Shown: positions 1,618-17,340 of the stretch, one piece after another
How positions within the stretch are numbered: position 1 is the first letter of the stretch
Layout: every line of letters begins with the position of its first letter
Virus record (IMG/VR): IMGVR_UViG_3300035698_008434
Coordinates: 1-23,242 of that record
Source of the DNA: a virus
DNA: 23,242 nucleotides
Direction: 5' to 3' (one strand)
Made by a program: the position numbers and the translations under genes
The notes under the pieces: model-generated
What the model was told of the DNA's origin: nothing
Databases searched by the model: none
What the model saw: the letters and a program-made list of their open reading frames with translations, nothing else

Positions 1618-1792
1618 CAATATTGGATGTATATTTTCAGATGAAGAAGTATTTGTTATAAATTTAGCACTGTCAGAATTTGCAGATACAACAGATGAAT
1701 CAACAATAGAAAACACATGTCATAAAATAAGATCAAAGATACATAATATAAAGAGAAACGGAATATTAGTAGCGGGAGTTAACCTAAATTGA
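1574..1792 (+). CDS. Unknown 72-residue protein, GTG start
   Basis: The start is set at GTG 1574 because GGAGGT (1561-1566) lies 7 nt upstream, an ideal ribosome binding site. An ATG further upstream in the frame (1550) has none. The protein begins MSRQMKQQMKVPIRNN and continues with a probable helical core (SDEEVFVINLALSEFAD) and a basic C-terminal part (CHKIRSKIHNIKRNG). No family is recognised. It overlaps the preceding gene by 44 nt, and its TGA overlaps the TTG start of the following nuclease gene, so the three are probably translationally coupled. Confidence 0.65.
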   Translation: MSRQMKQQMKVPIRNNIGCIFSDEEVFVINLALSEFADTTDESTIENTCHKIRSKIHNIKRNGILVAGVNLN

Positions 1793-2499
1793 GTACGACA
1801 TTATTCGAAGACTTTGTAAATTCTATATATGCAGCATCTGGCCCTGGTGTTATATTACCAAAGATAAGCGGCGCAGAAAATCCTCAGTATTTTACATACG
1901 AAGAAGCAGTAGTCGTACGTATTATTGATGGCGACACAATAGTAGCAAATGTTAACCATCAAGCAAAAGGTAATGCATATACATTAAAATGGTATGAGAA
2001 AAAGAAGGGCCGCCATTATAGACTATTAAAAATAGACTCACCGGAAATAGCTGGCACAAAAAAGGATACTAATGGTAATGCAGTAACCCACGTTGGGCAT
2101 TTACAAAGTAAAGAAGCTAAAGCTTATATGGAATCATTATGCAAAGTTGGATCAACTATATCTATATTGAATTTTGGAACAGGTGATTACAAGCGGTATT
2201 TAGCATATATATTTATAAATAAAAATATATGCGCCAATTTAGAGATGGTTATAAAAGGATTAGCAATAACTATAAATAAAGTTGCTGGAACTAAACAAAT
2301 AACAAATAGTAAATATGATACAAATAAGAAGAAGTTTAAATATAAAGTTAGCCAAGAGAAGAATACAACATCCCCAACTATTGATAGACATTTCAAATCA
2401 GCGCAAGATAATGCAAGGTCTAATGAATTAGGCATATGGGCATCTGCTGTTAGAGATACCGCATTGATAAAAGCGTGGATTAGCGAAAGATCGAGGTAA
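1789..2499 (+). CDS. Staphylococcal-nuclease-like (thermonuclease family) nuclease
   Basis: A 236-residue protein with an SNase/TNase domain, a Ca2+-dependent OB-fold phosphodiesterase cutting DNA or RNA. Every residue class used by Staphylococcus aureus nuclease is visible: the DGDT metal-binding motif at 47-50, Arg78 and Glu86 in YRLLKIDSPEI with Asp83 between them, and Arg136 in GDYKRYLAYIF. The usual closing elements LEMVIKGLAI (151-160) and NARSNELGIWA are also present. A basic Lys-rich insertion (about 170-190) precedes the last helix. No signal peptide is evident. It starts with TTG at 1789, overlapping the previous TGA, with GGGAG at 1774-1778. Catalytic activity is inferred. Its place in a virion block raises the question whether it is packaged or acts on host DNA. 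It could also process DNA during packaging or ejection. Confidence 0.85.
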   Translation: MSTTLFEDFVNSIYAASGPGVILPKISGAENPQYFTYEEAVVVRIIDGDTIVANVNHQAKGNAYTLKWYEKKKGRHYRLLKIDSPEIAGTKKDTNGNAVTHVGHLQSKEAKAYMESLCKVGSTISILNFGTGDYKRYLAYIFINKNICANLEMVIKGLAITINKVAGTKQITNSKYDTNKKKFKYKVSQEKNTTSPTIDRHFKSAQDNARSNELGIWASAVRDTALIKAWISERSR

Positions 2500-2501
2500 T
2501 A

Positions 2502-3377
2502 ATGGGCATAGATTACGTAGGACCAATAGATAAAGTTGAAGAACAACCAAGTGATCATGTACCAGACTTTGATGACATTACTGGTATAGAAATAAAAGAG
2601 CCACCAGAAGTACCAGATCCACCTATAGAAAATGCAGTAGCTACCACTGATGTATTCAGTAAAGCAACTATAGATAGTTTATCTAAATACTATACAGATG
2701 CAGAATTAAAACATATGCAAACTAATATACCTAAAGATGTAGCAAATAAGATACATCAGACATTAATGAATATGAACACTGGCGCGTATTCGGCAATACC
2801 TAGAATATGTGCTGGTAAAAGATGTCCATCATCACACGCATGTCCCTTTGTAGCAAATGGAGCAGAACAAGCTATCGTCGGTAAGAAATGCCCAGTAGAG
2901 GTTATAATGGTAGATGAGTTAAGAAATCAATATAACGAACTGATGCATGAAAATGATATCAATAATAATATAGTAATAGAAAATTACATATCGGATTTGA
3001 TAGAATGCGACGTATCTAATATGCGACTAAGCCACTATATAGCAAACGATGCTAATAGCGGGGGCGGCGAGGTTGTAAGCGAAGCATTCTTAATAAACCC
3101 AAAAACAGGTGAATCAGAATACCACCAGGCAGAAAACGTAGCATTATCTATTAAGAGTTTTATTGGGGCTAGAAAAGAAAAGGCAATTAAAGCACTAATT
3201 GCCAGTCCATATTGGAAACAGAAGATGTCTGGAAACGCAGGAGACGATGACATAAAACGTACCCAGGACTTATTAGAAAAGGCCAAACAGCTACGAGAAG
3301 AGATGTCAACAGAACAACAAGCACCTAGAGATGCTAGCTTTGAAATCGTCGGAGATGACGAACCGATAAACCTGTAA
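2502..3377 (+). CDS. Unknown protein with four-cysteine motif
   Basis: A 291-residue protein whose first 50 residues are acidic and Pro-rich. A helical segment follows, then a cysteine cluster at C103, C108, C114 and C130 (spacing C-x4-C-x5-C-x15-C, each of the last three followed by Pro). The pattern suggests a bound zinc ion or iron-sulphur cluster, but I cannot assign a named family. The remainder is helical, with a Lys/Glu-rich C-terminal segment (DLLEKAKQLREEMSTEQQ). The ATG at 2502 lies 2 nt after the nuclease stop, with GAGGT at 2493-2497. A DNA-binding or terminase small-subunit-like role is conceivable from size and position, but this is speculation. A strong hairpin follows the gene. 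Confidence 0.7.
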   Translation: MGIDYVGPIDKVEEQPSDHVPDFDDITGIEIKEPPEVPDPPIENAVATTDVFSKATIDSLSKYYTDAELKHMQTNIPKDVANKIHQTLMNMNTGAYSAIPRICAGKRCPSSHACPFVANGAEQAIVGKKCPVEVIMVDELRNQYNELMHENDINNNIVIENYISDLIECDVSNMRLSHYIANDANSGGGEVVSEAFLINPKTGESEYHQAENVALSIKSFIGARKEKAIKALIASPYWKQKMSGNAGDDDIKRTQDLLEKAKQLREEMSTEQQAPRDASFEIVGDDEPINL

Positions 3378-3454: not shown

Positions 3455-6400
3455 ATGGCTAAGAAAAAGGTACCACAGTTACATATAGGACAGCGAGCTA
3501 ATGCCACGAATGTTAATAAGGCAAAAAACGGACTGTACCAGTATGGGGACATATACAAGGACCCGACTCCTGGATCTAAGAAGTTATATGCATACATTGG
3601 TGGTGAAAAATCATTATCAGGATATGCAATAGATGTAGCAAATGGCCAACACATCCCTATTGCCGATATTGCACATGTATTTCAAGATGCAAATAAAAGT
3701 GGCGATAACTATACCGATGCCACAAAACCTGGTGGAGATATAGTAAGTGCGCCAGCAAGAGCAGTGCAAGAGGCAACAGCTAGTAGACTGTATGATGAAA
3801 AGATATTCGTAGACTTAGAAACCACAGTAAAGTCTATGAAAATAGCAAATGACTATAAAGATGTAACAGAAATAGCATTCGCTAAGACTAGTTCAAATGC
3901 AACAATTAGAGGAGCGTCCGCTGCCACAACAGGAGACGCCGGAGCTAACAGATCTGATGTAAGTAAACTGTCAATACTATTAGGTATGGAATTTGATAAA
4001 TCAGGGAAACTAATAGACACTGCCGGAGAAACTGGTGCCGGTAGAAAAGTCATGGGAGATATATTAAAAAGTATACATGACAGAGGTAGACAGAAGTTAT
4101 TAAAAAGTAGAGATATAAGATTCCAAATGTCCAAAAGCCACGGAGTTCATGGCGAAGGATTTATGGCCGATGATGTACTTAATGCATTAGGAGGAATCCA
4201 AGATGGCGCCAAGAAGGGGCACATCGATTTTGTAGAGACACTTGTAAAGCAAACTGGTAAAGATACTGGGTTTATGATAGACCAAACCTGGAAACAGGGA
4301 AGACAATCTGGGTTTCTTAATAGCGTATGGAAAAACTTAGCAGATTCTCAAAAAGAAGGCGTAGGTACATTCGGGTTTAATACTAGAACATTTGATGGAC
4401 CAATTATAGAAAGATTATCCGGTAATAAAATACACATTAATGATATGAGAGAGCATACTATATTATTATACGGTAACCTTTTTCCAGAGGCCACAGAGAA
4501 GCTAGTACAAAACATGGAACGCCAGTACAGACCATTACTAAGTAAGTCTAAAGATCCGGGAGTTGCCGGTAAAACAATGGATTCAGTACTAGCTACATTC
4601 GGACGTGGGTTTAAAAGCCAGTATACTGGCGGAACTAGTGTAGAACGTATATACAATTTACTATATAACAAAATAGCTAAGGGCAACAATGACTACACAC
4701 ATGAGCTACATGCTGGAGTAGCAGATAACCCATTAGTAGCTAATCTTACTGAGAAGATATTTGCCCAAGAAGATTTCATTAAAAATGCATCGAAAAGATA
4801 TGGCAAAATGGGATTAAGTACCCAAGAAGGTTTAGTTATGGATACCTTCGAGCTTACTTATGCTGAGATGGGAGTAAAGCAGGATCAAGCATATCAAACA
4901 TTCGCCAGACCAGAAACAGTAGACACAAAGGCAGCTGGAAAGATATTCAATAGATATAGACAAGACTTCAAACAACTCATGGACCCAAAAGATGTAAAGA
5001 AGTCATTTGAACAAGCAACTGAACGGCAAGTAAATAGAGCACTGGCAAAGAAAAATGGATGGTTCAAAAATGCAGTGAAATCATCTATGAGCGGAAATGC
5101 ACTTGCCAATATATTAGGCGGGGCAGCTATAAGTGCCGGCGTTAAGATGACAATAGATAAAGTATCAAATATACATAACAGAGTCAAATCTACGCAAGAC
5201 CTCGAAGGCATGAACCATAACTCTATCTTTACAACAATGCGACGTATGACCATGACTGACTTTGGTTCAGCGTGGTTAGGCACAACTGGTAGAATGGCTA
5301 AGCAGATGGCTAAGTATTTCTTTCACGCACCATCTCAAGCCGGACATGCAAAAGCTATATTATCAGGCATGGGTAATATAATGAAAAATGGATTTGCTAG
5401 TGATTTCTTAAGACCAACTAATATTATGAAAGGCATGAGACATTTAGGCGAAGTAATGACCACTGAATTAAAAGCTAGTAGATTCAAAGTGGTAGATAAA
5501 ACAGGTAGAGCATTAGCTAATGTAACTAGACCTAAATACTTTGTTGACAAATATAAAATGGCAATAAACTCCATAAGCGGATTGTTCGGTGGATCAGATA
5601 CATCTATGCACACTGCATCAGTGGGTAGAGCTATGCGCGATATAATACAATCCCCTTCTTCCGCTAAATATATGAAATGGGCTGGAGCTGGCGTAGTAGG
5701 AGCGGTTGGATTAAATACATTAGCTGGTTCATATTTTGGAGAAGATAGATATCCTCAATACTCACAGGTAGATCCATTAGACGGAGCACAGTCAGAAGCA
5801 TTCCAAAATGGCGAGCATCTACTATCAGGATACAAAGTAGAAAGAGGTAAGAGATCAAGTAACTTCTTCTCAACAATGAGAAACTCTACATTACCAGAAG
5901 CAATGAGAATGAGCGATAAAGGTATGGATAGTAAAAACGTATCTAGAAATAGAAAAATTAATAGACAGTCAATAACAGACTTTGGCTCCAAACATAAGCC
6001 GCATTCTCCAACTAGTGCTGCATATACATATGAATTTATGTTAGCTGGGGGAATGGGTAAAGATGGAGAAATAGCATGGGCAGGTACTATGCCAGAAGAA
6101 GATAAACCCAGTAGATTAGCTGACATGTATGAGAAAGCAGTTCGAGAATTTGATATGGGAAAAGGTGAATTTGAGATACAAAATGATACAGAAAATATGT
6201 CAATAACTGCTGAAATACAATCAGCATATAGTAGAATGATAGAAGGAATGACACTACCTGTATCTGAATTGCAAAAAACATTAAAATCCACTGCACCTAA
6301 TATGTCATTCTTTAAAGATAATGATAGAATACAAAAGGCAATACCAAGACCAGTAGATAGCGAACAAGTACAATTAGGCATGCCAAAACCATTTGTTGCT

Positions 6401-7003
6401 AGGGGAATGCACGAAGATACAGTTGGGATAAGAATGAATCCAGAAGTATTAAGTGAGATGACTAGAACTGGCAGTACATATAAGGGATTACCAAATAGTA
6501 ATCTTAAAGTATCTGGAATGAAGACTGGCCTAATATATCCAAAACCTACAGAGTTTCTAGATGCAACCAATACTAGAATGGCTAAGCCAGGCGACGGTAA
6601 GTATAGTAAATCTAAAGCATATCTAGAAACTGGAAAGATACAAGGAAATAGTGACTTAAGATGGGATGATATCAAACTACCAAATGTATATGGAGATGTC
6701 GGCGAAGTAATGCAAAGAGACAAATTCGAAGGATTAGATACAATTACATCTGGTATAGCAAGAGATATATTAAGGGCACAGCCGGCTATGTTAAAACAAA
6801 ATTCCCCTAACATTTCCGGAGGCATAAATTATGATAGAATATCAGGATGGGATGTAGCAAAGTCAGAATCACAACCAGTTAATTTGCGCGAACTAGATAT
6901 GCATGAGACAGCAGCGCTGACTTATGGCCAAGCTAACGATGGCCCTGGATATGCTAGCGAAGACACATATGCAGGAAGAGATAACGATTACCTTTATCTA
7001 TAG
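3455..7003 (+). CDS. Large putative virion protein with N-terminal DEDDh (DnaQ-like) exonuclease domain
   Basis: A 1,182-residue protein. Residues about 115-435 carry the ordered motifs of a DEDDh 3'-5' exonuclease: Exo I KIFVDLETT (Asp120, Glu122) followed by VTEIAFAKT; Exo II GFNTRTFDGPIIERL (Asp314); Exo III HAGVADNPLVANL (His419, Asp424), preceded by a helix (SVERIYNLLYNKI) like the one usually found there. The stretch between Exo I and Exo II is longer than is typical. After residue 450 no domain is recognised. That part has Gly/Ala-rich, weakly hydrophobic segments (547-566 and about 742-761) and a long polar C-terminal region ending DYLYL. The ATG at 3455 follows AGGAG. Neighbours are basic internal-protein-like genes and terminase, so I infer a virion or ejected protein. 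A replication-associated exonuclease is the alternative. Confidence 0.75.
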   Translation: MAKKKVPQLHIGQRANATNVNKAKNGLYQYGDIYKDPTPGSKKLYAYIGGEKSLSGYAIDVANGQHIPIADIAHVFQDANKSGDNYTDATKPGGDIVSAPARAVQEATASRLYDEKIFVDLETTVKSMKIANDYKDVTEIAFAKTSSNATIRGASAATTGDAGANRSDVSKLSILLGMEFDKSGKLIDTAGETGAGRKVMGDILKSIHDRGRQKLLKSRDIRFQMSKSHGVHGEGFMADDVLNALGGIQDGAKKGHIDFVETLVKQTGKDTGFMIDQTWKQGRQSGFLNSVWKNLADSQKEGVGTFGFNTRTFDGPIIERLSGNKIHINDMREHTILLYGNLFPEATEKLVQNMERQYRPLLSKSKDPGVAGKTMDSVLATFGRGFKSQYTGGTSVERIYNLLYNKIAKGNNDYTHELHAGVADNPLVANLTEKIFAQEDFIKNASKRYGKMGLSTQEGLVMDTFELTYAEMGVKQDQAYQTFARPETVDTKAAGKIFNRYRQDFKQLMDPKDVKKSFEQATERQVNRALAKKNGWFKNAVKSSMSGNALANILGGAAISAGVKMTIDKVSNIHNRVKSTQDLEGMNHNSIFTTMRRMTMTDFGSAWLGTTGRMAKQMAKYFFHAPSQAGHAKAILSGMGNIMKNGFASDFLRPTNIMKGMRHLGEVMTTELKASRFKVVDKTGRALANVTRPKYFVDKYKMAINSISGLFGGSDTSMHTASVGRAMRDIIQSPSSAKYMKWAGAGVVGAVGLNTLAGSYFGEDRYPQYSQVDPLDGAQSEAFQNGEHLLSGYKVERGKRSSNFFSTMRNSTLPEAMRMSDKGMDSKNVSRNRKINRQSITDFGSKHKPHSPTSAAYTYEFMLAGGMGKDGEIAWAGTMPEEDKPSRLADMYEKAVREFDMGKGEFEIQNDTENMSITAEIQSAYSRMIEGMTLPVSELQKTLKSTAPNMSFFKDNDRIQKAIPRPVDSEQVQLGMPKPFVARGMHEDTVGIRMNPEVLSEMTRTGSTYKGLPNSNLKVSGMKTGLIYPKPTEFLDATNTRMAKPGDGKYSKSKAYLETGKIQGNSDLRWDDIKLPNVYGDVGEVMQRDKFEGLDTITSGIARDILRAQPAMLKQNSPNISGGINYDRISGWDVAKSESQPVNLRELDMHETAALTYGQANDGPGYASEDTYAGRDNDYLYL

Positions 7004-7012
7004 GAGGACAGT

Positions 7013-7393
7013 ATGGGATTTTTTACAGCAGGACTTAAACACGGATACAAGGCCGGTAGGACTGTATTAGGCGGTGCAAATACTGCTAGGAAAACGCTTA
7101 GTGGCACTCAAGCATTTGGCTCATATGTTAAATCAGCAATGAAAGGCCCATTTAGTATGGCATTAAAGCCAATGAAAACATTAAAGAGTGGATTGAATGA
7201 TTTGAAACCAATACAAAATGTACTTAGTGGATCAAGAGGCGCAGAACATTTAAGGCAAGCTGGACAGGCATCTGCTAGATTACTTGGAACAGCAGCCGGA
7301 GCAACATATGTAACTAGAGCATTAAGAGGCAAAAGCCCATTCAAAAATGGTGGAGACAAACGTGACGTTCTACCATGGGTACCATTTATTTAA
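7013..7393 (+). CDS. Small basic protein, putative internal virion protein
   Basis: A 126-residue, Lys/Arg/Gly/Ala-rich protein with no acidic clusters. AGGAGG (7002-7007) overlaps the previous stop codon and sits 5 nt before ATG 7013. The N-terminal half has evenly spaced Lys residues in Gly-rich sequence; residues about 85-106 (ASARLLGTAAGATYVTRAL) form a mildly hydrophobic helix. The C-terminus is GGDKRDVLPWVPFI, a hydrophobic tail that could be a sorting or docking peptide. No family is recognised. Its composition and position among similar genes suggest a DNA-binding or membrane-active protein carried in the virion. Confidence 0.7.
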   Translation: MGFFTAGLKHGYKAGRTVLGGANTARKTLSGTQAFGSYVKSAMKGPFSMALKPMKTLKSGLNDLKPIQNVLSGSRGAEHLRQAGQASARLLGTAAGATYVTRALRGKSPFKNGGDKRDVLPWVPFI

Positions 7394-7403
7394 GGAGTAA
7401 CAC

Positions 7404-7712
7404 ATGGCATTTGGATTAACCGCAGCACGTAGAGCGTCAAACGCAGCACGCAAAATAGCAAGGAGTGCACTAAAAGCAAAAGCTGCAGCAGGCGTGGGAT
7501 CTACTATGACTGGCATGATTTTGGGAGCTAGAAGCATATCCATACCATTAATCACTGCAGCAGTAATTGGTAAAGTGGCTAAGACTAGCAATAAGATAAT
7601 GAACGCAGGAAATCCCGGAATTATGGGATACGGAAAAAGAGGCATAGATGCTAATAATCTAAATACAGATGGATTAGTACAAGGCCTATCTAAGAAGCGC
7701 CGAGGCAGGTAG
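7404..7712 (+). CDS. Small basic protein with one hydrophobic segment
   Basis: A 102-residue protein starting at ATG 7404, with AAGGAG at 7392-7397 overlapping the previous stop. The first 30 residues form an Arg/Lys/Ala amphipathic helix (TAARRASNAARKIARSALK). Residues about 36-59 (TGMILGARSISIPLITAAVI) are hydrophobic enough for a membrane segment. The C-terminal third ends in GIDANNLNTDGLVQGLSKKRRGR, with a very basic tip. No family is recognised. It resembles its upstream neighbour in composition and may be a small internal or ejected virion component. Confidence 0.7.
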   Translation: MAFGLTAARRASNAARKIARSALKAKAAAGVGSTMTGMILGARSISIPLITAAVIGKVAKTSNKIMNAGNPGIMGYGKRGIDANNLNTDGLVQGLSKKRRGR

Positions 7713-7715
7713 TAA

Positions 7716-9881
7716 TTGGCTAAACAACCACAGGGACAAATCGGTCAGAAAGAGAAAACCGAGCACCCTCTATCAGGATTTACATCAGGAAGATCAACTC
7801 TACTACAGAGTATGATGTTAAGCAAGATGTCCGGAATGGGCCAAATGGCACTAACTGGATATCGACATACTGGTGCACCTACTATGCTCAAAGGATTATT
7901 GGGCGGAGCTAAACCAGGTTCTGTTGGTACTCCCATGGGTAGAACACTTGGTCTTGCTGGACTAGGTTACCAAATAGGCGGACCCTTTGGCGCAGCTATA
8001 GGCGCAGGCGTATCGTATGGCATGGGCGGCCAGGGCGTATTAGAAAAGATGTTCAGAATGAACGAGGGTCTTGCAAAGAAGATTGGATGGGGAGTAGATA
8101 CTAATAATAAAGCAGCATACTTTGGTAAAAATCAAACATCAGGTGGATTATTTAGAAACCCAAATAGAGCTATCAAAGGTGGATTCGGACCTACCAATGC
8201 AGTAAGATCAGGAACTACTAAATTATGGCAGGCTGTAACAGGTCCGCGTATACTAAACGAAGCACGACATGCAGGCAATACAGCATTCGCAGCAAAATAT
8301 AATAATGCATCAGAACTATTCTCAGCATCAAAACTTGCATCAACTAGAGATTTCCAAGGAATGGCACGAGGAGCTGGCGAGAGCGCTACTGAAGTATTAG
8401 AAAATATGTCAAAAGCCAACGTAGCAGTAGCAATAGATAGAAATGCTGTTAATTTAACTGATGCGCAAATAGGTAATGCAATACCAAACTGGGAACAAAT
8501 GTCCCCGGAAGATCTAGCAGATAGTGTGCAAAAGACTAGAGATAGATCTAAAACTATGGTAGATAAATACGATAGCACACTTAATAGAGCAAAAGAGTCG
8601 CAAGCATATCTAACATCAGGTACAGGTATGGCATCTGCAGAAAAAGGACTAAGAGCAGGAGACCAAGCGCAAAGAAGCGCAGCAGCATATAGAGCATTTG
8701 GAGATATGCCAGTAGGATTTAGTAGACAAGAATTAGATATTCTTAGACCGCAATATAGCTCAACCGCAGATTTATTAGCAAGTGGGCAAAGTACAAAAAG
8801 TATAGGAGCATTACAGAACGCAGAGAATACATACCTTAATAGTACATCCAGCTTAAGGCAGCAAAGAAAAAGCACAAAGATGTTAAGAAAAGCGGGCAGA
8901 CGTCTACGAAAATTAGGATTAGGTGGAAATACTTTAGGCGAAGATGTCATGAGCCGAACTGCCACCCCAGAAATGACCGATAGAGCAATATCTACAATAA
9001 TGGGAGATGTGAACGCAGGTAACGGACTAAGCGTGCACAATAGATTAAATATTGTAGGATTGCAAGCAAGAACAGGTGGAATGGCTGGAACATTTGCACA
9101 GCTTCAAGCAGTAGCTTCAGCTCCTCAATCATTCTTTGGTAAAGTAGGATTTGTATTCTCTAACAAAAAGCGGGAAGCATATCGCCAAGCATTATCTAAA
9201 TCATATAAGAATGCCGTGTCAGGATTCTTTTCAAGAGGCGACCCGGCTGGACATATGCTAAGTGAAAAAGCATTTGAGTCTATGGTAAGAAATGCACAAT
9301 CTTTAAATCCAGGAATAATGAAGGTAGAAGATTTAATGGCATTGAACGGCGGCGCAACCTTTAAAGGCATGTCACAGGTACAAGCTACATTAGATGCTAT
9401 AGATGACATGGGATCTAGAGGCGCATTTAGCATGGAATCAATACAGAGTATGAAATCTGAATTGAATCTAGCCAATAAGCTACATATGGATGGCAAGGCA
9501 GCTTCTGGTAAGATTAAGGATATATACAAAAGTATAGAAAAACAAATGGGCGCTGGTGCCGATAGAGCTGCCCTAATACAAACAGGTAAAGTTGCCAGTA
9601 AGTCATCTGCATCATTAATGTCAACAATTGCTAAACCAATATTTGCATTTCAAATAGGTGCGGAATTAGTCGACCTAGGATTCAGAGGCGTATGGAATGT
9701 TGCACAGAATATGAATCTACAAATAGATAAGTTAAAAACTAGGGAGTTTGGCTCTGGTACCGCATTAAATACACAACAAGCTAGTACAGAGAGACAGCGT
9801 GCAATGCAATTGATACAATCCAATCATATGGCAGCATCGTCATTTATGGGATTAGAAGCAAGTATGAGAGCAGGGAGATAA
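7716..9881 (+). CDS. Gly/Ala-rich putative internal virion protein, 721 residues
   Basis: The start is TTG 7716, 3 nt after the previous stop, with GAGG (7702-7705) upstream. Residues 73-107 are glycine-rich and hydrophobic (for example GLGYQIGGPFGAAIGAGVSY), as in membrane-active or pore-forming phage ejection proteins. The middle is long, polar and helical. The C-terminus (about 673-716) carries a module that recurs in the next gene: REFGSGTALNT, then TERQRAMQLIQSN, then MGLEA. No enzymatic motif is seen. Arg/Lys exceed Asp/Glu and cysteine is absent. Position before terminase and portal, with small basic neighbours, suggests a structural or DNA-ejection protein. That function is inferred, not shown. 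Confidence 0.7.
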   Translation: MAKQPQGQIGQKEKTEHPLSGFTSGRSTLLQSMMLSKMSGMGQMALTGYRHTGAPTMLKGLLGGAKPGSVGTPMGRTLGLAGLGYQIGGPFGAAIGAGVSYGMGGQGVLEKMFRMNEGLAKKIGWGVDTNNKAAYFGKNQTSGGLFRNPNRAIKGGFGPTNAVRSGTTKLWQAVTGPRILNEARHAGNTAFAAKYNNASELFSASKLASTRDFQGMARGAGESATEVLENMSKANVAVAIDRNAVNLTDAQIGNAIPNWEQMSPEDLADSVQKTRDRSKTMVDKYDSTLNRAKESQAYLTSGTGMASAEKGLRAGDQAQRSAAAYRAFGDMPVGFSRQELDILRPQYSSTADLLASGQSTKSIGALQNAENTYLNSTSSLRQQRKSTKMLRKAGRRLRKLGLGGNTLGEDVMSRTATPEMTDRAISTIMGDVNAGNGLSVHNRLNIVGLQARTGGMAGTFAQLQAVASAPQSFFGKVGFVFSNKKREAYRQALSKSYKNAVSGFFSRGDPAGHMLSEKAFESMVRNAQSLNPGIMKVEDLMALNGGATFKGMSQVQATLDAIDDMGSRGAFSMESIQSMKSELNLANKLHMDGKAASGKIKDIYKSIEKQMGAGADRAALIQTGKVASKSSASLMSTIAKPIFAFQIGAELVDLGFRGVWNVAQNMNLQIDKLKTREFGSGTALNTQQASTERQRAMQLIQSNHMAASSFMGLEASMRAGR

Positions 9882-9882
9882 T

Positions 9883-10299
9883 ATGAGTTTCGTAGAGAGT
9901 CAATACCCAGTAACTATGTATGATCCGAAGTTAGCAATGGGTATAAATCAGGCAGCATATCTAAGAAATCAACACAAACTTAATCCAATGACTAGATTCA
10001 AACATGAAAACCCACTAGCAATGAAGAAGTTAAATTCGATGGCTAGATGGGGCGGGGCAATGTTCCTAGCCACAACAGTACTTAAAACGGCAGATGTATT
10101 AGTAGGATCAGGATTAGGATTAATAAGTGGCGTAACGCAGGCAGTAAACAAACTAGGATCCAGAGAATTCGGCAACGGCAGAGCACTTACTACAAAACAA
10201 TCAGGCACTGAACGCGAAAGAGCACTGAAGAGAATACAAGCTAATAAGATGGGCCCCAGATCAAACATGGGCAGAGAAGCCCAATTCATAAATTATTAG
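9883..10299 (+). CDS. Small protein sharing a C-terminal module with the preceding protein
   Basis: A 138-residue protein. The ATG at 9883 is preceded by AGGGAG (9872-9877). An N-terminal region of about 55 polar residues is followed by a hydrophobic segment (MARWGGAMFLATTVL, then VLVGSGLGLISGV). Residues 91-133 align without gaps with residues 673-715 of the upstream 721-residue protein, identical at 24 of 43 positions; conserved parts include REFG, the TER-x-RA-x3-IQ-x-N-x-M core and MG-x-EA. This looks like a duplicated C-terminal module on a short carrier. Function is unknown; the shared end suggests both proteins bind the same partner or are routed to the same place in the virion. Confidence 0.75.
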   Translation: MSFVESQYPVTMYDPKLAMGINQAAYLRNQHKLNPMTRFKHENPLAMKKLNSMARWGGAMFLATTVLKTADVLVGSGLGLISGVTQAVNKLGSREFGNGRALTTKQSGTERERALKRIQANKMGPRSNMGREAQFINY

Positions 10300-10317: not shown

Positions 10318-13300
10318 ATGGGCACAACAGACCTTAAAGATCCTCAGTATGTCAGACCAGGATCTATAATAATAAATGAAAAAGATGGGACTCCTGTAGA
10401 CGTTCCAGAAAGACGAGTCAAATATCTAGACGACAGACTATTGCCCTCAGATATGAATAGAGTAATTGAAAGATTACAACTAACTGCAGATGATGCATTT
10501 AGATTGCAAGTTGCCAATGACCCAGTATTATGGGCAGAAACATATCTGGTAGATCCGGAAAACAACAGAAACAGTCTATCATTACGCTTCTATCAAAGTG
10601 ATATATTATCTACACCAAGCAGATTTAAAGTATTAAGATTGGGCCGCCAGATGGGTAAATGCGTAGGAGAAGACTGTAGGATATCACTACCAAATGGCAC
10701 CAATCCTAAAGCTAAAGACATATTTGAAACATACGGACCTAATCGTGAATTTGATATAGTTACATATGATACAGACAATGACTCGCTTGCGTCATCTGTA
10801 GGTATTATAGAAGACAACGGCGTTAAAGACTGTATTAAAATAGAAACTAGACATGGTATGATAGGTACATTCACTGCCAATCATAAAATGAAAGTATATG
10901 ATGAGGATGACAATCTCCAGGACGTGCCTGCATTTGAAGTAAAGATAGGAGATAACTTACCAGTAGTATTAAGCGAAGAGAAATTCACTGACCTAAGAGA
11001 AAATATACCAACGTACAAAGGGCTTAATGGTGACGATTTAACTGTTCTTGGTATAATGACATTCTCTGGACTCAAGGATTATGACACAATAATTGAAGTA
11101 GTTAACGGGGATAAGAAAAGCATTGTCGAAGAGATACTAGAAGATTACAATGCAAAATACCGTGAGGTTAGAGTATATAAAGATGTTAAACGTAGAAGTA
11201 CACATTATAGAATAGCATTTGAGGGCGGCAATAACAGGTTAATGGAGTTCCTAGAAGATCATGATATGATACCATTTGATAAGTATTCAGATGAGTTACC
11301 AGATTTCGTATATGATTTACCTAAAGAATTAGCATACAAATTCCTGAGGGGAGTATTCTCCAGTAGAACTGTACTGTATGAAAACAAAAAGAAGATGCAT
11401 ACTCCTCCTACTATACTAGTAGAAGCAGTGCATGATATCTATACTAACAAACTCACAATGATGATGAGGCGTATTGGTATTCGTGGAAATAGAGTACACA
11501 AATATGGCACAGCTAATTCAACTAAACCAGATAGTATATATCTTAAGATATCAGGTGCATCAGAATGCTTAGACACTATGAATAAACTGGGTAGATTTAC
11601 CACAGTAGATAAGTGGAAAGCATTTAAGAAGTTCCTTAAGGCCGAAGGAGCTGAAGAACTTACTGATAAAGAAGTAGAGAAAGATGACGTCGTCAAGATA
11701 ACATTTCCCAAGAACATAAAAACATACAATATATCTGTTAAAGATGTGCACAATTTTGTATGCGAAGGAATCATAACTAACAACTCAGTAACAGTAGCAG
11801 TAGATGTATTATGGAGAGCACTAAACTGCAACAGTTATAAGATAGTAATTGTAGCACCGTATCTTGCTCAGATCAATACCTTATTTGGTAGGATTAAAGC
11901 AATGATGCAGGGATCATCTCCAATGCAAAAGATGATAGCTAGAACAACCACCAACCCTCCATATATTGAATTCAGTAATGGGTCTATGATAAAGGGGTTT
12001 GTAGCTGGCGATTCAGTTGCCGGGCAATCCGCCAATGCACTATATTATGACGAATCAGATTATATATCCAATTTTGATAAAGAGCGTATTAACCCTATTG
12101 TGTTTAACTTTCCAGACCATATTATATTTGAAGCATCCACCCCTACAGGAAAAAGAGAAGAATACTATCATACATGTTTAGATGAAAATGCTTACGTAGA
12201 ATTTCATTATCCGTCCCATATGTCACCAACTTGGACAGATGAAACGGATGAAGCATATAGGGCATCACATAGTGCGATGGGATATACTCATGAGGTAGAA
12301 GCATTATTTGGAAACCCAGAAGCAGGGGTATTTAGAGTAGCAGATATTAATGAATGCATCGCACTTAGTAAAACCAAGCAAACAATGGATTATAAGAACG
12401 AATTGGTCAATATCAGCTATACATATGAAGAGCACCTAGCTGACACTATGGCTTTAGCAAAAAAGGATAGGCCCAAATTTATATTAGGCGTAGACTGGAA
12501 TGCTGCCGATAATGGTACGCAAATAGTAGTATTAGGGGTGGCGGAAAAAATATATCTAGCAAACCTAATAAGTATCACAGGTCAAGAATTTACACAAACA
12601 ATAGCAGTAGAACATATAGCTAGGTTAAATGAAATATATGACCCAATAGCAATATATGTAGATATTGGATACGGGGGCATGCAAGTTGAAGTACTTAAAA
12701 TATACGGCAAAGAACATCCAGAAAGTAAATTACACAAACGAGTACACGCAGTTGACTTCGCTAGTAAGATAGAAATACCAGATCCTATTACTGGAGAAAT
12801 TACCAAAAAGAAAATGAAGCAGTTTATGATAGATAGATTCCAAAGATTGGTAGAAAACCACCAATTAGTTATACCGGACATAGAAGAGGGCACGCATGGA
12901 ATAGCTACTGAAATGCGTAACTTTGAAATAGAAAGGTATGGAGTAGACGGAACTCCTATCTATAGTAAGAAGACAGCAGACCATAAGATCATGGCAGCGG
13001 CATTAGCTATACTAGCATACAATCAGCTAATAGAAAAGATAGATAGATTTACGTATATCCCTGGACTTAATAAAGTAACATCAGATTTAACTACTAAAAT
13101 ACGTAAGAATACAATAAGCAAAGACTTACACCAAAGAGCCAAACTTGACAGCTCACTTACTGATAACACTGGAACGCCACCAACCCATAAAACTATAGCT
13201 CAAATAGCTGGCATAAATATACCATTTGCAGGCATTGATCCTGTAGCAGCAGATAGAGCTGGCGCTACCCCTACATCATACCGTAAACGGTATAAAATAA

Positions 13301-13362
13301 GAACATCAAATAAAAGTAATGCACCATTAGGTATTAAACGTGGCTCAAGGAGTAGTTTCTAG
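10318..13362 (+). CDS. terL: Terminase large subunit, interrupted by an intein
   Basis: A 1,014-residue precursor of the ATP-driven packaging motor and headful nuclease. The extein parts total 639 residues, a usual TerL length. ATPase motifs: a Q-like LRFYQSDIL at 89-97; Walker A GRQMGK (109-114) joined after splicing to Ser490 (GKS-VTVAV); Walker B ALYYDE (574-579, Asp578/Glu579); coupling motif STP at 607-609. RNase-H-fold nuclease: Asp726 in FILGVDWN, Asp782 in IYVDIGYGG, Asp888 in TADHKIMAAALA. All catalytic acids are present. The intein occupies residues 115-489 and splits Walker A, so the precursor cannot be an active ATPase until spliced. Start ATG 10318 follows AGGAGA at 10302-10307. 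The stop overlaps the next gene's GTG by one base. Confidence 0.95.
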   Translation: MGTTDLKDPQYVRPGSIIINEKDGTPVDVPERRVKYLDDRLLPSDMNRVIERLQLTADDAFRLQVANDPVLWAETYLVDPENNRNSLSLRFYQSDILSTPSRFKVLRLGRQMGKCVGEDCRISLPNGTNPKAKDIFETYGPNREFDIVTYDTDNDSLASSVGIIEDNGVKDCIKIETRHGMIGTFTANHKMKVYDEDDNLQDVPAFEVKIGDNLPVVLSEEKFTDLRENIPTYKGLNGDDLTVLGIMTFSGLKDYDTIIEVVNGDKKSIVEEILEDYNAKYREVRVYKDVKRRSTHYRIAFEGGNNRLMEFLEDHDMIPFDKYSDELPDFVYDLPKELAYKFLRGVFSSRTVLYENKKKMHTPPTILVEAVHDIYTNKLTMMMRRIGIRGNRVHKYGTANSTKPDSIYLKISGASECLDTMNKLGRFTTVDKWKAFKKFLKAEGAEELTDKEVEKDDVVKITFPKNIKTYNISVKDVHNFVCEGIITNNSVTVAVDVLWRALNCNSYKIVIVAPYLAQINTLFGRIKAMMQGSSPMQKMIARTTTNPPYIEFSNGSMIKGFVAGDSVAGQSANALYYDESDYISNFDKERINPIVFNFPDHIIFEASTPTGKREEYYHTCLDENAYVEFHYPSHMSPTWTDETDEAYRASHSAMGYTHEVEALFGNPEAGVFRVADINECIALSKTKQTMDYKNELVNISYTYEEHLADTMALAKKDRPKFILGVDWNAADNGTQIVVLGVAEKIYLANLISITGQEFTQTIAVEHIARLNEIYDPIAIYVDIGYGGMQVEVLKIYGKEHPESKLHKRVHAVDFASKIEIPDPITGEITKKKMKQFMIDRFQRLVENHQLVIPDIEEGTHGIATEMRNFEIERYGVDGTPIYSKKTADHKIMAAALAILAYNQLIEKIDRFTYIPGLNKVTSDLTTKIRKNTISKDLHQRAKLDSSLTDNTGTPPTHKTIAQIAGINIPFAGIDPVAADRAGATPTSYRKRYKIRTSNKSNAPLGIKRGSRSSF
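10660..11784 (+). mobile_element. Intein in the terminase Walker A motif, with degenerate LAGLIDADG region
   Basis: A 375-residue in-frame insertion (precursor residues 115-489). It begins with Cys115 (block A, CVGEDCRISLPNG). Block B is GTFTANH, with T186-x-x-H189. It ends VHNFVCEGIITNN (blocks F and G) before Ser490 of the host protein. The terminal Asn489 is present; the penultimate residue is Asn488 instead of the usual His. The central part resembles a two-motif LAGLIDADG endonuclease, but both motifs lack acids: LGIMTFSG at 244-251 has Ser where GDG has Asp, and LRGVFSSRT at 343-351 replaces DADG with SSRT. Downstream ISGASECLDTMNKLG matches the usual region after motif two. Splicing is probably kept, while homing cleavage is probably lost. 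Confidence 0.9.
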
Positions 13363-15633: not shown

Positions 15634-17340
15634 ATGAATATAATTGACTCTATGAAATACGCATATGACAAATCTAAAGTAAATCGCACTATGACAAATG
15701 TTGAAGAAGTTGTTAGAACTGGACTGATAAGACATGCGTCATCAGATCTTGCAACTCCTAAAATGAGAGCGGCTAGTGGAATTACCGGCAAACTCACCAA
15801 ACTACTTGGTAGAATGTTCACATCTAACAGAACATATTTTACTGATAATAGTGGATATAACCTAAGTAGAATTATGACTGCGTATGAAACAGAAACCTTT
15901 GTGGCAAGAGTAGTCGACTTTTATGTAATAAGTGTATTACAAAAAGGATGGGACCTTACAGGTAACAACCCACATTATGTTAAATATATCAGAAAAAGAT
16001 TATTCGAGATGGAATTGGTTTCCGGAACTAGCCTCAGGGCTAATCTGTCTAAACTAGTCAGTCAGATATTACTGAGTGGAAACGGGTTCTTATCAAAAGT
16101 AAGAAACCCTAAAGCATCAAGTGGTAAAAAATGGACTAGATTCGATGGGCATGAATTCGAACCAATAGCTGCAGTTGAAGTACAAGACGCAGTAGCTATG
16201 CGGATTGCATACGATTACGATAAGAATAAAGCAGCCAAATACTATCAGTACAAGAAATCAACATATGGAGATGATGGTACTGCAATTAGATCAGGCGGAG
16301 GCGATAAGCGAAAACGTAGAAATACCCCAGATTATTCTAACTGGACTACAGACGATATGATACATGTCCGCTTTCATCCACTCCCAGGTAAGGTTTGGGC
16401 TATGCCACCTTTCCAACCAGTGATAGAAGATATACTTGCATTAAGAGAAATAGAAGAATCAATACAATTGTTAGTGTATCAATACGGGCACATCTTCTTA
16501 CATGGAACTGTAGATATATTATCACCAGAAGAAAAGCAGCAAGAGATCAATAATGTAATTGCACAGTTAGAAAGAATGGCAGGCAACGGCGCTATGGTAA
16601 CTGGACAAGAAGTGAAATTCCAAGCTATTGGCGCAGAAGGTAAAGCCATTAGAGCTGAGGGATACTTAAAATACTTTCAGCAAAGAGTATTAGCTGGACT
16701 ATTTACATCATCATTAGCTATGGGTCAGGGAGATACTGCTAATAGAAATACTGCAGATTCAGTAGATAAACAGAAACAGGAAGTAACTAAAGATATACAA
16801 AGCATAATCATTGATGCAATGCAGGGATTATTTGACGAATTACTATTTGAAAGTGGCGCAACTGTAGATCAAATATGGCAGGGACGGGTTGCACTATGGT
16901 TTCCCGAACCAGATATTGATTCTAAGATTAAACAAGAACAGCACGCAATGCTGCTGTATCAAAGTAATAGTGTCACTGAACCTGAGATGCGGGAAATGAT
17001 TGGAAAGAAGGCATTAGAAGAATCAGAAAGGCAAGATCTCTACTATAACAAAGTAGGATTGGAACAATTAAAAGCAGAGACTCTGTCACAAATGGCAATC
17101 TCTGCAGCAAGTGCTAAATCACAAGGCACTAGTGTTGGGAATAGTACTAATTCGAATGGCAATAGTACTCGTAAAAAGTCAGAAGGAGCTAGTAAAACTG
17201 CAAAACAAACAACCAAACCAGCCAATCAACATGGAACAAAGACAGGTCCTGGTTCTATTAAAAACAGTATACTAGCTATTGATTATGACAAATATGGTAA
17301 TGCAGTGGTTGATTTTGACAAGCTATTTAATCCTGAATAA
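15634..17340 (+). CDS. Portal protein
   Basis: A 568-residue protein with features of the dodecameric portal, the DNA channel and terminase dock at one capsid vertex. Seen: the N-terminal wing region (SGYNLSRIMTAYETETFVARVVDFYVISVLQKGWDLTG, about 73-110); SKLVSQILLSGNGFLSKVRN at 139-158; the DDMIHVRFHPLPGKVWAMPPFQPVIEDILALR segment (240-271), which resembles portal crown/stem sequences; and the RVLAGLFTSSLAMGQGDTANR region at 351-371. An Arg/Lys loop lies at 224-229. A Ser/Thr/Asn/Lys-rich low-complexity tail (about 493-545) precedes a short folded end. The ATG at 15634 follows TAAGGA at 15621-15626. Its position after terminase and before protease fits the call. A 122-nt gap with a candidate promoter follows. 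Confidence 0.88.
   Translation: MNIIDSMKYAYDKSKVNRTMTNVEEVVRTGLIRHASSDLATPKMRAASGITGKLTKLLGRMFTSNRTYFTDNSGYNLSRIMTAYETETFVARVVDFYVISVLQKGWDLTGNNPHYVKYIRKRLFEMELVSGTSLRANLSKLVSQILLSGNGFLSKVRNPKASSGKKWTRFDGHEFEPIAAVEVQDAVAMRIAYDYDKNKAAKYYQYKKSTYGDDGTAIRSGGGDKRKRRNTPDYSNWTTDDMIHVRFHPLPGKVWAMPPFQPVIEDILALREIEESIQLLVYQYGHIFLHGTVDILSPEEKQQEINNVIAQLERMAGNGAMVTGQEVKFQAIGAEGKAIRAEGYLKYFQQRVLAGLFTSSLAMGQGDTANRNTADSVDKQKQEVTKDIQSIIIDAMQGLFDELLFESGATVDQIWQGRVALWFPEPDIDSKIKQEQHAMLLYQSNSVTEPEMREMIGKKALEESERQDLYYNKVGLEQLKAETLSQMAISAASAKSQGTSVGNSTNSNGNSTRKKSEGASKTAKQTTKPANQHGTKTGPGSIKNSILAIDYDKYGNAVVDFDKLFNPE

Follow-up and report, generated by a model that had tools for sequence, protein, structure and literature searches.

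The gene neighbourhood of P0001

The window (the whole stretch of DNA analysed, 23,242 bases) is an IMG/VR genome fragment from a 0305phi8-36/ME3-like myophage. Its portal, terminase and capsid proteins were 24–32% identical to those of Acinetobacter phage ME3, Bacillus phage KLEB27-3 and Moorella phage MTATph1. The structural proteins of Bacillus phage 0305phi8-36 are partly common to ME3 (PMC5000817). As a single-sequence query against viral contigs the portal gave no match; 80 related viral loci were collected via the portal alignment. The following genes were recognized:

360-728: GroES-like co-chaperonin (PHROG 3188, 2.5e-8)
1789..2499, + strand: SNase (staphylococcal nuclease), a stand-alone gene (Pfam, 3e-12)
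2502..3377, + strand: w4, a Cys-rich conserved neighbour, 5' of the putative cargo gene in most loci
3455..7003, + strand: P0001, a 1182-aa modular protein with a predicted DEDDh domain, a hydrophobic segment, a linker and an unrecognised C-terminal half
7013-7393, 7404-7712, 7716-9881 and 9883-10299, + strand: four basic Gly/Ala-rich genes in the P0001-terminase interval
10318..13362, + strand: terminase large subunit with an intein
15634..17340, + strand: portal protein, through which the phage group was found

The co-chaperonin gene lay close to the putative cargo and head genes. The SNase gene was separate, two genes upstream of P0001. The w4 protein was acidic, with a conserved Cys cluster (CAGKRC...C...GKKC), and its gene stood 5' of the putative cargo gene across the group. 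P0001 had been described as standing among basic internal-protein-like genes, directly before terminase and portal; the pI of its neighbours, 10.1–12.0, and the identification of the terminase and portal genes agreed with this. Small Gly-rich hydrophobic genes matching the 7013..10299 set were also present in relatives.

The gene directly 5' of the terminase often carried a C-terminal motif, TERQRALQxIQxxxxxARxxxGxEA (window 7716-10299; L005:2-826; L003, L006, L009, L013, L014 and L045), which the window has twice, once in the 721-aa protein and once in the 138-aa protein. A search with the terminase pair matched only L005, whose contig begins within a homologue of the 721-aa gene. The intein in the window terminase followed GRQMGK (Walker A) and spanned residues ~116–489; the terminases of L005, L009 and KLEB27-3 were comparably long.

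The DEDDh domain of P0001

The P0001 ORF had an ATG start and a ribosome-binding-like stretch (AGGAGAGG) 5' of it. Used alone as a query, P0001 gave no match in Pfam, PHROGs, PDB, phage records or viral contigs, so the original prediction of a DEDDh exonuclease had rested on motifs only. The parts delineated within the protein, all on the + strand, were:

3782..4804, + strand: DEDDh exonuclease domain, residues ~110–450 (predicted from motifs, alignment and family profile)
3800..3826, + strand: Exo I, IFVDLETTV (D120 and E122; within it VDLETT), invariant in alignments
4370..4408, + strand: Exo II, GFNTRTFDGPI region (N309, F313, D314; Asp314 in GFNTRTFDGPII), aligned in the 22-row set
4607..4726, + strand: pre-Exo III element YTGGTSVERIYNLL and Exo III HELHAGVAD (H419, D424)
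5099..5155, + strand: Gly-rich hydrophobic segment, residues 549–567, before the linker
5174..5278, + strand: linker motif, residues 574–608 (DLEGMNHNSIFTTMRRMTMTDFGSAW), found with a held-out profile
5681..5737, + strand: second hydrophobic segment, residues 743–761
5954..5998, + strand: possible second, degenerate linker end (INRQSITDFGSKH), residues 834–848, weak (4.9–7.0 bits)
6002..7000, + strand: acidic C-terminal third, pI 5.0, in which no domain was recognised

Among 200,000 shuffled versions of P0001, one matched the strict pattern that requires Exo I, II and III in order, and none of the other control ORFs (519, of at least 400 aa) did. When residues 100–470 were aligned with 21 relatives (unguided MAFFT), overall conservation was low and the only invariant columns were D120, E122, T123, F313, H419 and D424, with N309 conserved to >90% in the 22 rows. 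D120, E122, H419 and D424 were also invariant in an alignment of 39 domains, where MAFFT left Exo II of P0001 unplaced because of its ~190-aa Exo I-II spacer. The Exo II acid was a Glu in most relatives, and an Asp in P0001 and some others. The original claim that Asp120/Glu122, Asp314 and His419/Asp424 are present in order was thus confirmed in the ORF, by the shuffles and in the alignments. Judged from these comparisons, Exo I and Exo III are secure, and Asp314 is the likely Exo II acid, the least certain of the three motifs.

Among PDB chains, a family profile built without the window recovered PolC, DnaQ and RNase T at 1e-5. The domain model of the best-modelled relative, L053 (pLDDT 78, pTM 0.74), had the RNase-H-like core of these enzymes; by Foldseek it was closest in the PDB to DnaQ/RNase T-type folds, with a TREX1-like enzyme at 4.6e-6. 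The model of the P0001 domain itself was weak (pLDDT 55, pTM 0.50); its Foldseek matches were mostly DnaQ-like, with many exonuclease folds of polymerase and TREX1-like type among them, and were not significant. The held-out DEDDh profile scored P0001 at a marginal 5.7 bits versus a best of 5.5 in 1,000 shuffles, via the element YTGGTSVE...H...D. Two relatives, L111 (2097-5945) and L093 (3961-8196), had inteins directly after the Exo II acid (FE/C...HN/S). An intein located directly at a catalytic residue is typical of working active sites. Very probably, then, P0001 carries an N-terminal DEDDh exonuclease domain, with a predicted 3'-5' activity.

The five catalytic positions are common to the P0001 family and to the PolC/DnaQ proofreading domain, RNase T, oligoribonuclease and the TREX1-like Plex9.1. 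Unlike classical DEDDh enzymes, the family has long Exo I-II and II-III insertions and mostly a Glu in Exo II. Its domain is fused into a polyprotein of the virion locus, whereas the classical ones are polymerase domains or free RNases.

The ~750 residues following the domain had been described as unrecognised and Gly/Ala-rich. Both hydrophobic segments exist, but the remainder is partly explained by the one at 549–567 and by the linker next to it.

A linker-defined protein family upstream of the terminase

In several related loci the w4-terminase interval contained an ORF of 600–1174 aa with a shared linker, a repeated stretch of ~37 aa (consensus xxFSGxDDxYNTIEGLxHxGIAxxxRKxxTxFGSGxx, core EGLxHxGIAxxxRKxxTxFGSG). 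A linker profile made without the window matched residues 574–608 of P0001 at 3.6e-6 among 16 window proteins and at 0.0018 among 8,297 ORFs, with 23.7 bits versus 9.0 for the best of 2,000 shuffles. The match dropped to E = 0.056 with an enlarged profile, which makes P0001 an outlying member of the linker family.

A search of viral DNA with a degenerate DNA pattern of the linker returned 87 stretches; a window-specific pattern returned none. Altogether there were 96 linker ORFs, 64 of them non-redundant, with 1–5 linkers each. Every linker copy in the contigs checked fell within one ORF. A 2419-aa ORF on the contig of L016/L102/L138 had six linker matches. Against bacterial/archaeal genome contigs the linker patterns gave 0 and 7 matches, and profiles detected no linker, terminase or nuclease ORF at the 7 loci. 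Searches of the linker proteins against cultured phages matched only through the SNase module. A literature search, covering few subscription papers, found no account of the linker or of a DEDDh-SNase architecture. A Glu-specific prohead-protease site was considered for the linker and rejected, since some copies have D, Q, T or L in place of the E.

The proteins were modular. DEDDh was found in 34 of the 64 non-redundant linker ORFs (E < 1e-3), always 5' of the first linker, SNase in 32, and both together in 22; because contig ends truncate some ORFs, the numbers without a given module are upper bounds. Since the SNase, separate from P0001 in the window, is fused to DEDDh in those 22, the relatives tie both nucleases together. 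Of 38 members, 25 had an SNase by Pfam and ~10 had kinase-type families, the kinase counts being taken from Pfam because the automatic kinase profile overlaps the linker and over-counts. By motif only, HExxH was present in ~17 of the 64, and GNAT-like segments in others. Many relatives had at least two unlike enzymatic or effector domains; DEDDh was the only enzyme domain recognised in P0001. In 45 of 58 relatives the first linker was preceded, at a distance of at most 60 aa, by a hydrophobic segment, as against 9% of background windows, and P0001 conforms to this arrangement. Short C-terminal tails were conserved as well: linker proteins that end in SNase had an SPIGHHRM-like tail (e.g., L095:500-4444), and DEDDh proteins that lack the linker had HHEY/HYEY (e.g., L032:1920-3518). 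These tails are possible targeting tags.

A terminase match was present at 51 loci, and at 50 of these the linker gene lay 0.8–3.7 kb 5' of it, on the same strand. The exception, L113, also fits when the whole contig is read, its main terminase match being ~1.4 kb downstream of the linker gene. In the window, the gap between P0001 and the terminase was 3.3 kb, with the w4 homologue on the 5' side. We surveyed the position of DEDDh in 50 long records (41–235 kb). It was matched in 24, reducing to ~19 independent cases because some are near-duplicates, and in 23 of the 24 there was a match 2.4–8.6 kb upstream of the terminase, on the same strand. Two other DEDDh matches away from the terminase were weak, in ORFs of ~200 aa. 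The original placement of P0001 in a virion block was thereby extended to a large phage group, DEDDh recurring at the exact locus, and homologues consistently in replication modules, which would have spoken against it, were not found in the 50 contigs. A replication proofreading subunit was rejected on this position upstream of the terminase.

The whole genomes of the cultured KLEB27-3 and MTATph1 gave no DEDDh match. Linker-less DEDDh proteins occupied the same w4-terminase locus in L032, L033, L038 and the cultured Acinetobacter phage vB_AbaM_ME3. In the latter, ME3_11 (AND75172.1, “hypothetical protein”) has the DEDDh domain, followed by a Gly-rich hydrophobic segment, and lies between a w4 homologue and the terminase; it differs from P0001 in having 529 aa, no linker and no extra modules recognised. 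The polymerase genes of ME3, ME3_60/61, are away from this locus.

Possible roles of P0001 and its relatives

Phages and conjugative elements encode large multidomain proteins, described as polyvalent proteins, for which packaging and injection have been predicted (Iyer et al. 2017, PMC5512222). Like the linker family, they are encoded near portal and terminase and combine kinase, GNAT and zincin-like peptidase domains; unlike in polyvalent proteins, the zincin is not universal in the linker family. SNase, DEDDh, a repeated linker and a strict pre-terminase locus do not appear in the text of PMC5512222. A polypeptide in which nuclease, kinase-like, HExxH and GNAT modules replace one another follows, by analogy, the logic of polyvalent proteins. 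T4 Alt, phage P1 DdrB and the N4 virion RNA polymerase are virion-packaged enzymes (PMC5512222). They are carried in the head, and Alt and the N4 RNA polymerase are delivered with the DNA. Their activities are others than exonuclease, and their packaging was shown experimentally, whereas that of the P0001 family is predicted.

We infer from the locus and the modular composition that P0001-type proteins are probably virion cargo. For P0001 itself, the reading we favour on balance is a cargo (ejection) polyprotein of the polyvalent kind, encoded in the virion locus of a 0305phi8-36/ME3-like jumbo-type myophage, with DEDDh as one interchangeable module in a family whose enzyme units are joined through a hydrophobic segment and the repeated linker. 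A consideration against such cargo is that a nuclease ejected with the phage DNA must spare that DNA. An exonuclease that acts alongside the neighbouring terminase, to trim or guard the end of the genome while it is packaged, and that is never delivered to a cell, would explain the constant position just 5' of the terminase and the occurrence of DEDDh in several sub-lineages, with or without linkers. We consider such a packaging accessory unlikely, because KLEB27-3 and MTATph1 gave no DEDDh match and because many linker proteins have, instead of DEDDh, an SNase, kinase-like, HExxH or GNAT module with no obvious packaging role. Accordingly, the comparative data strengthened the DEDDh assignment and the virion-locus reading of the original prediction, but made its suggestion of trimming or guarding the packaged end less likely. 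Slightly less probable again is a late intracellular nuclease for host genome recycling, recombination or repair, placed in the structural block by chance and never entering the virion. The annotation of SNase relatives in SPbeta-type phages as chromosome-degrading nucleases is in line with it; the synteny with head genes, conserved across a deep group, argues against it, as do the hydrophobic segments and effector modules to which the nuclease is fused and which are typical of injected proteins.

The large size, the Gly-rich hydrophobic segments and the low sequence conservation would also suit a structural, tape-measure-like protein, in which the DEDDh fold is a non-catalytic relic, a scaffold or a nucleic-acid binder. 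This we regard as improbable: only catalytic residues are invariant, inteins sit at the Exo II acid, the SNase modules are well recognised, and swapping of enzyme modules is not expected of proteins that set tail length. It is very improbable that the DEDDh call is a false positive for P0001 itself while being real in the relatives. P0001 alone had no significant profile match and its model was poor, but the rarity of the pattern among shuffles, the motif alignment and the placement of the domain relative to linker and terminase, as in the relatives, point to a genuine domain.

Under the favoured cargo reading, P0001 would be made late in infection, taken into the head or tail along with the basic Gly-rich proteins encoded next to it, and ejected together with the phage DNA. 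The hydrophobic segment may help it to cross or sit in the envelope, and, as infection begins, the DEDDh exonuclease and the separately encoded SNase would degrade nucleic acid that belongs to the host or is related to defence. We propose this specific role, in which host or defence nucleic acids are the target of the nucleases, with reserve, as somewhat short of an even chance. More speculatively, the linker could be a capsid-targeting and/or processing signal, by which any enzyme located between linkers would enter the virion and be delivered as an effector of its own, DEDDh and SNase being the commonest pair.

Because the relative ME3 has been cultured, the DEDDh part can already be put to the test. 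The single enzyme is of less interest than the family with its linker-joined modules and the conservation of its locus. Ejection of these proteins would mean that a large phage group, of which hardly any members are cultured, delivers enzymes, nucleases and kinases among them, by way of an interchangeable carrier encoded at one fixed locus. This would raise the question of how the phage DNA survives co-delivered nucleases. The catalogue of early-infection effectors would then be readable from contigs, and the linker may provide a natural signal for module loading.
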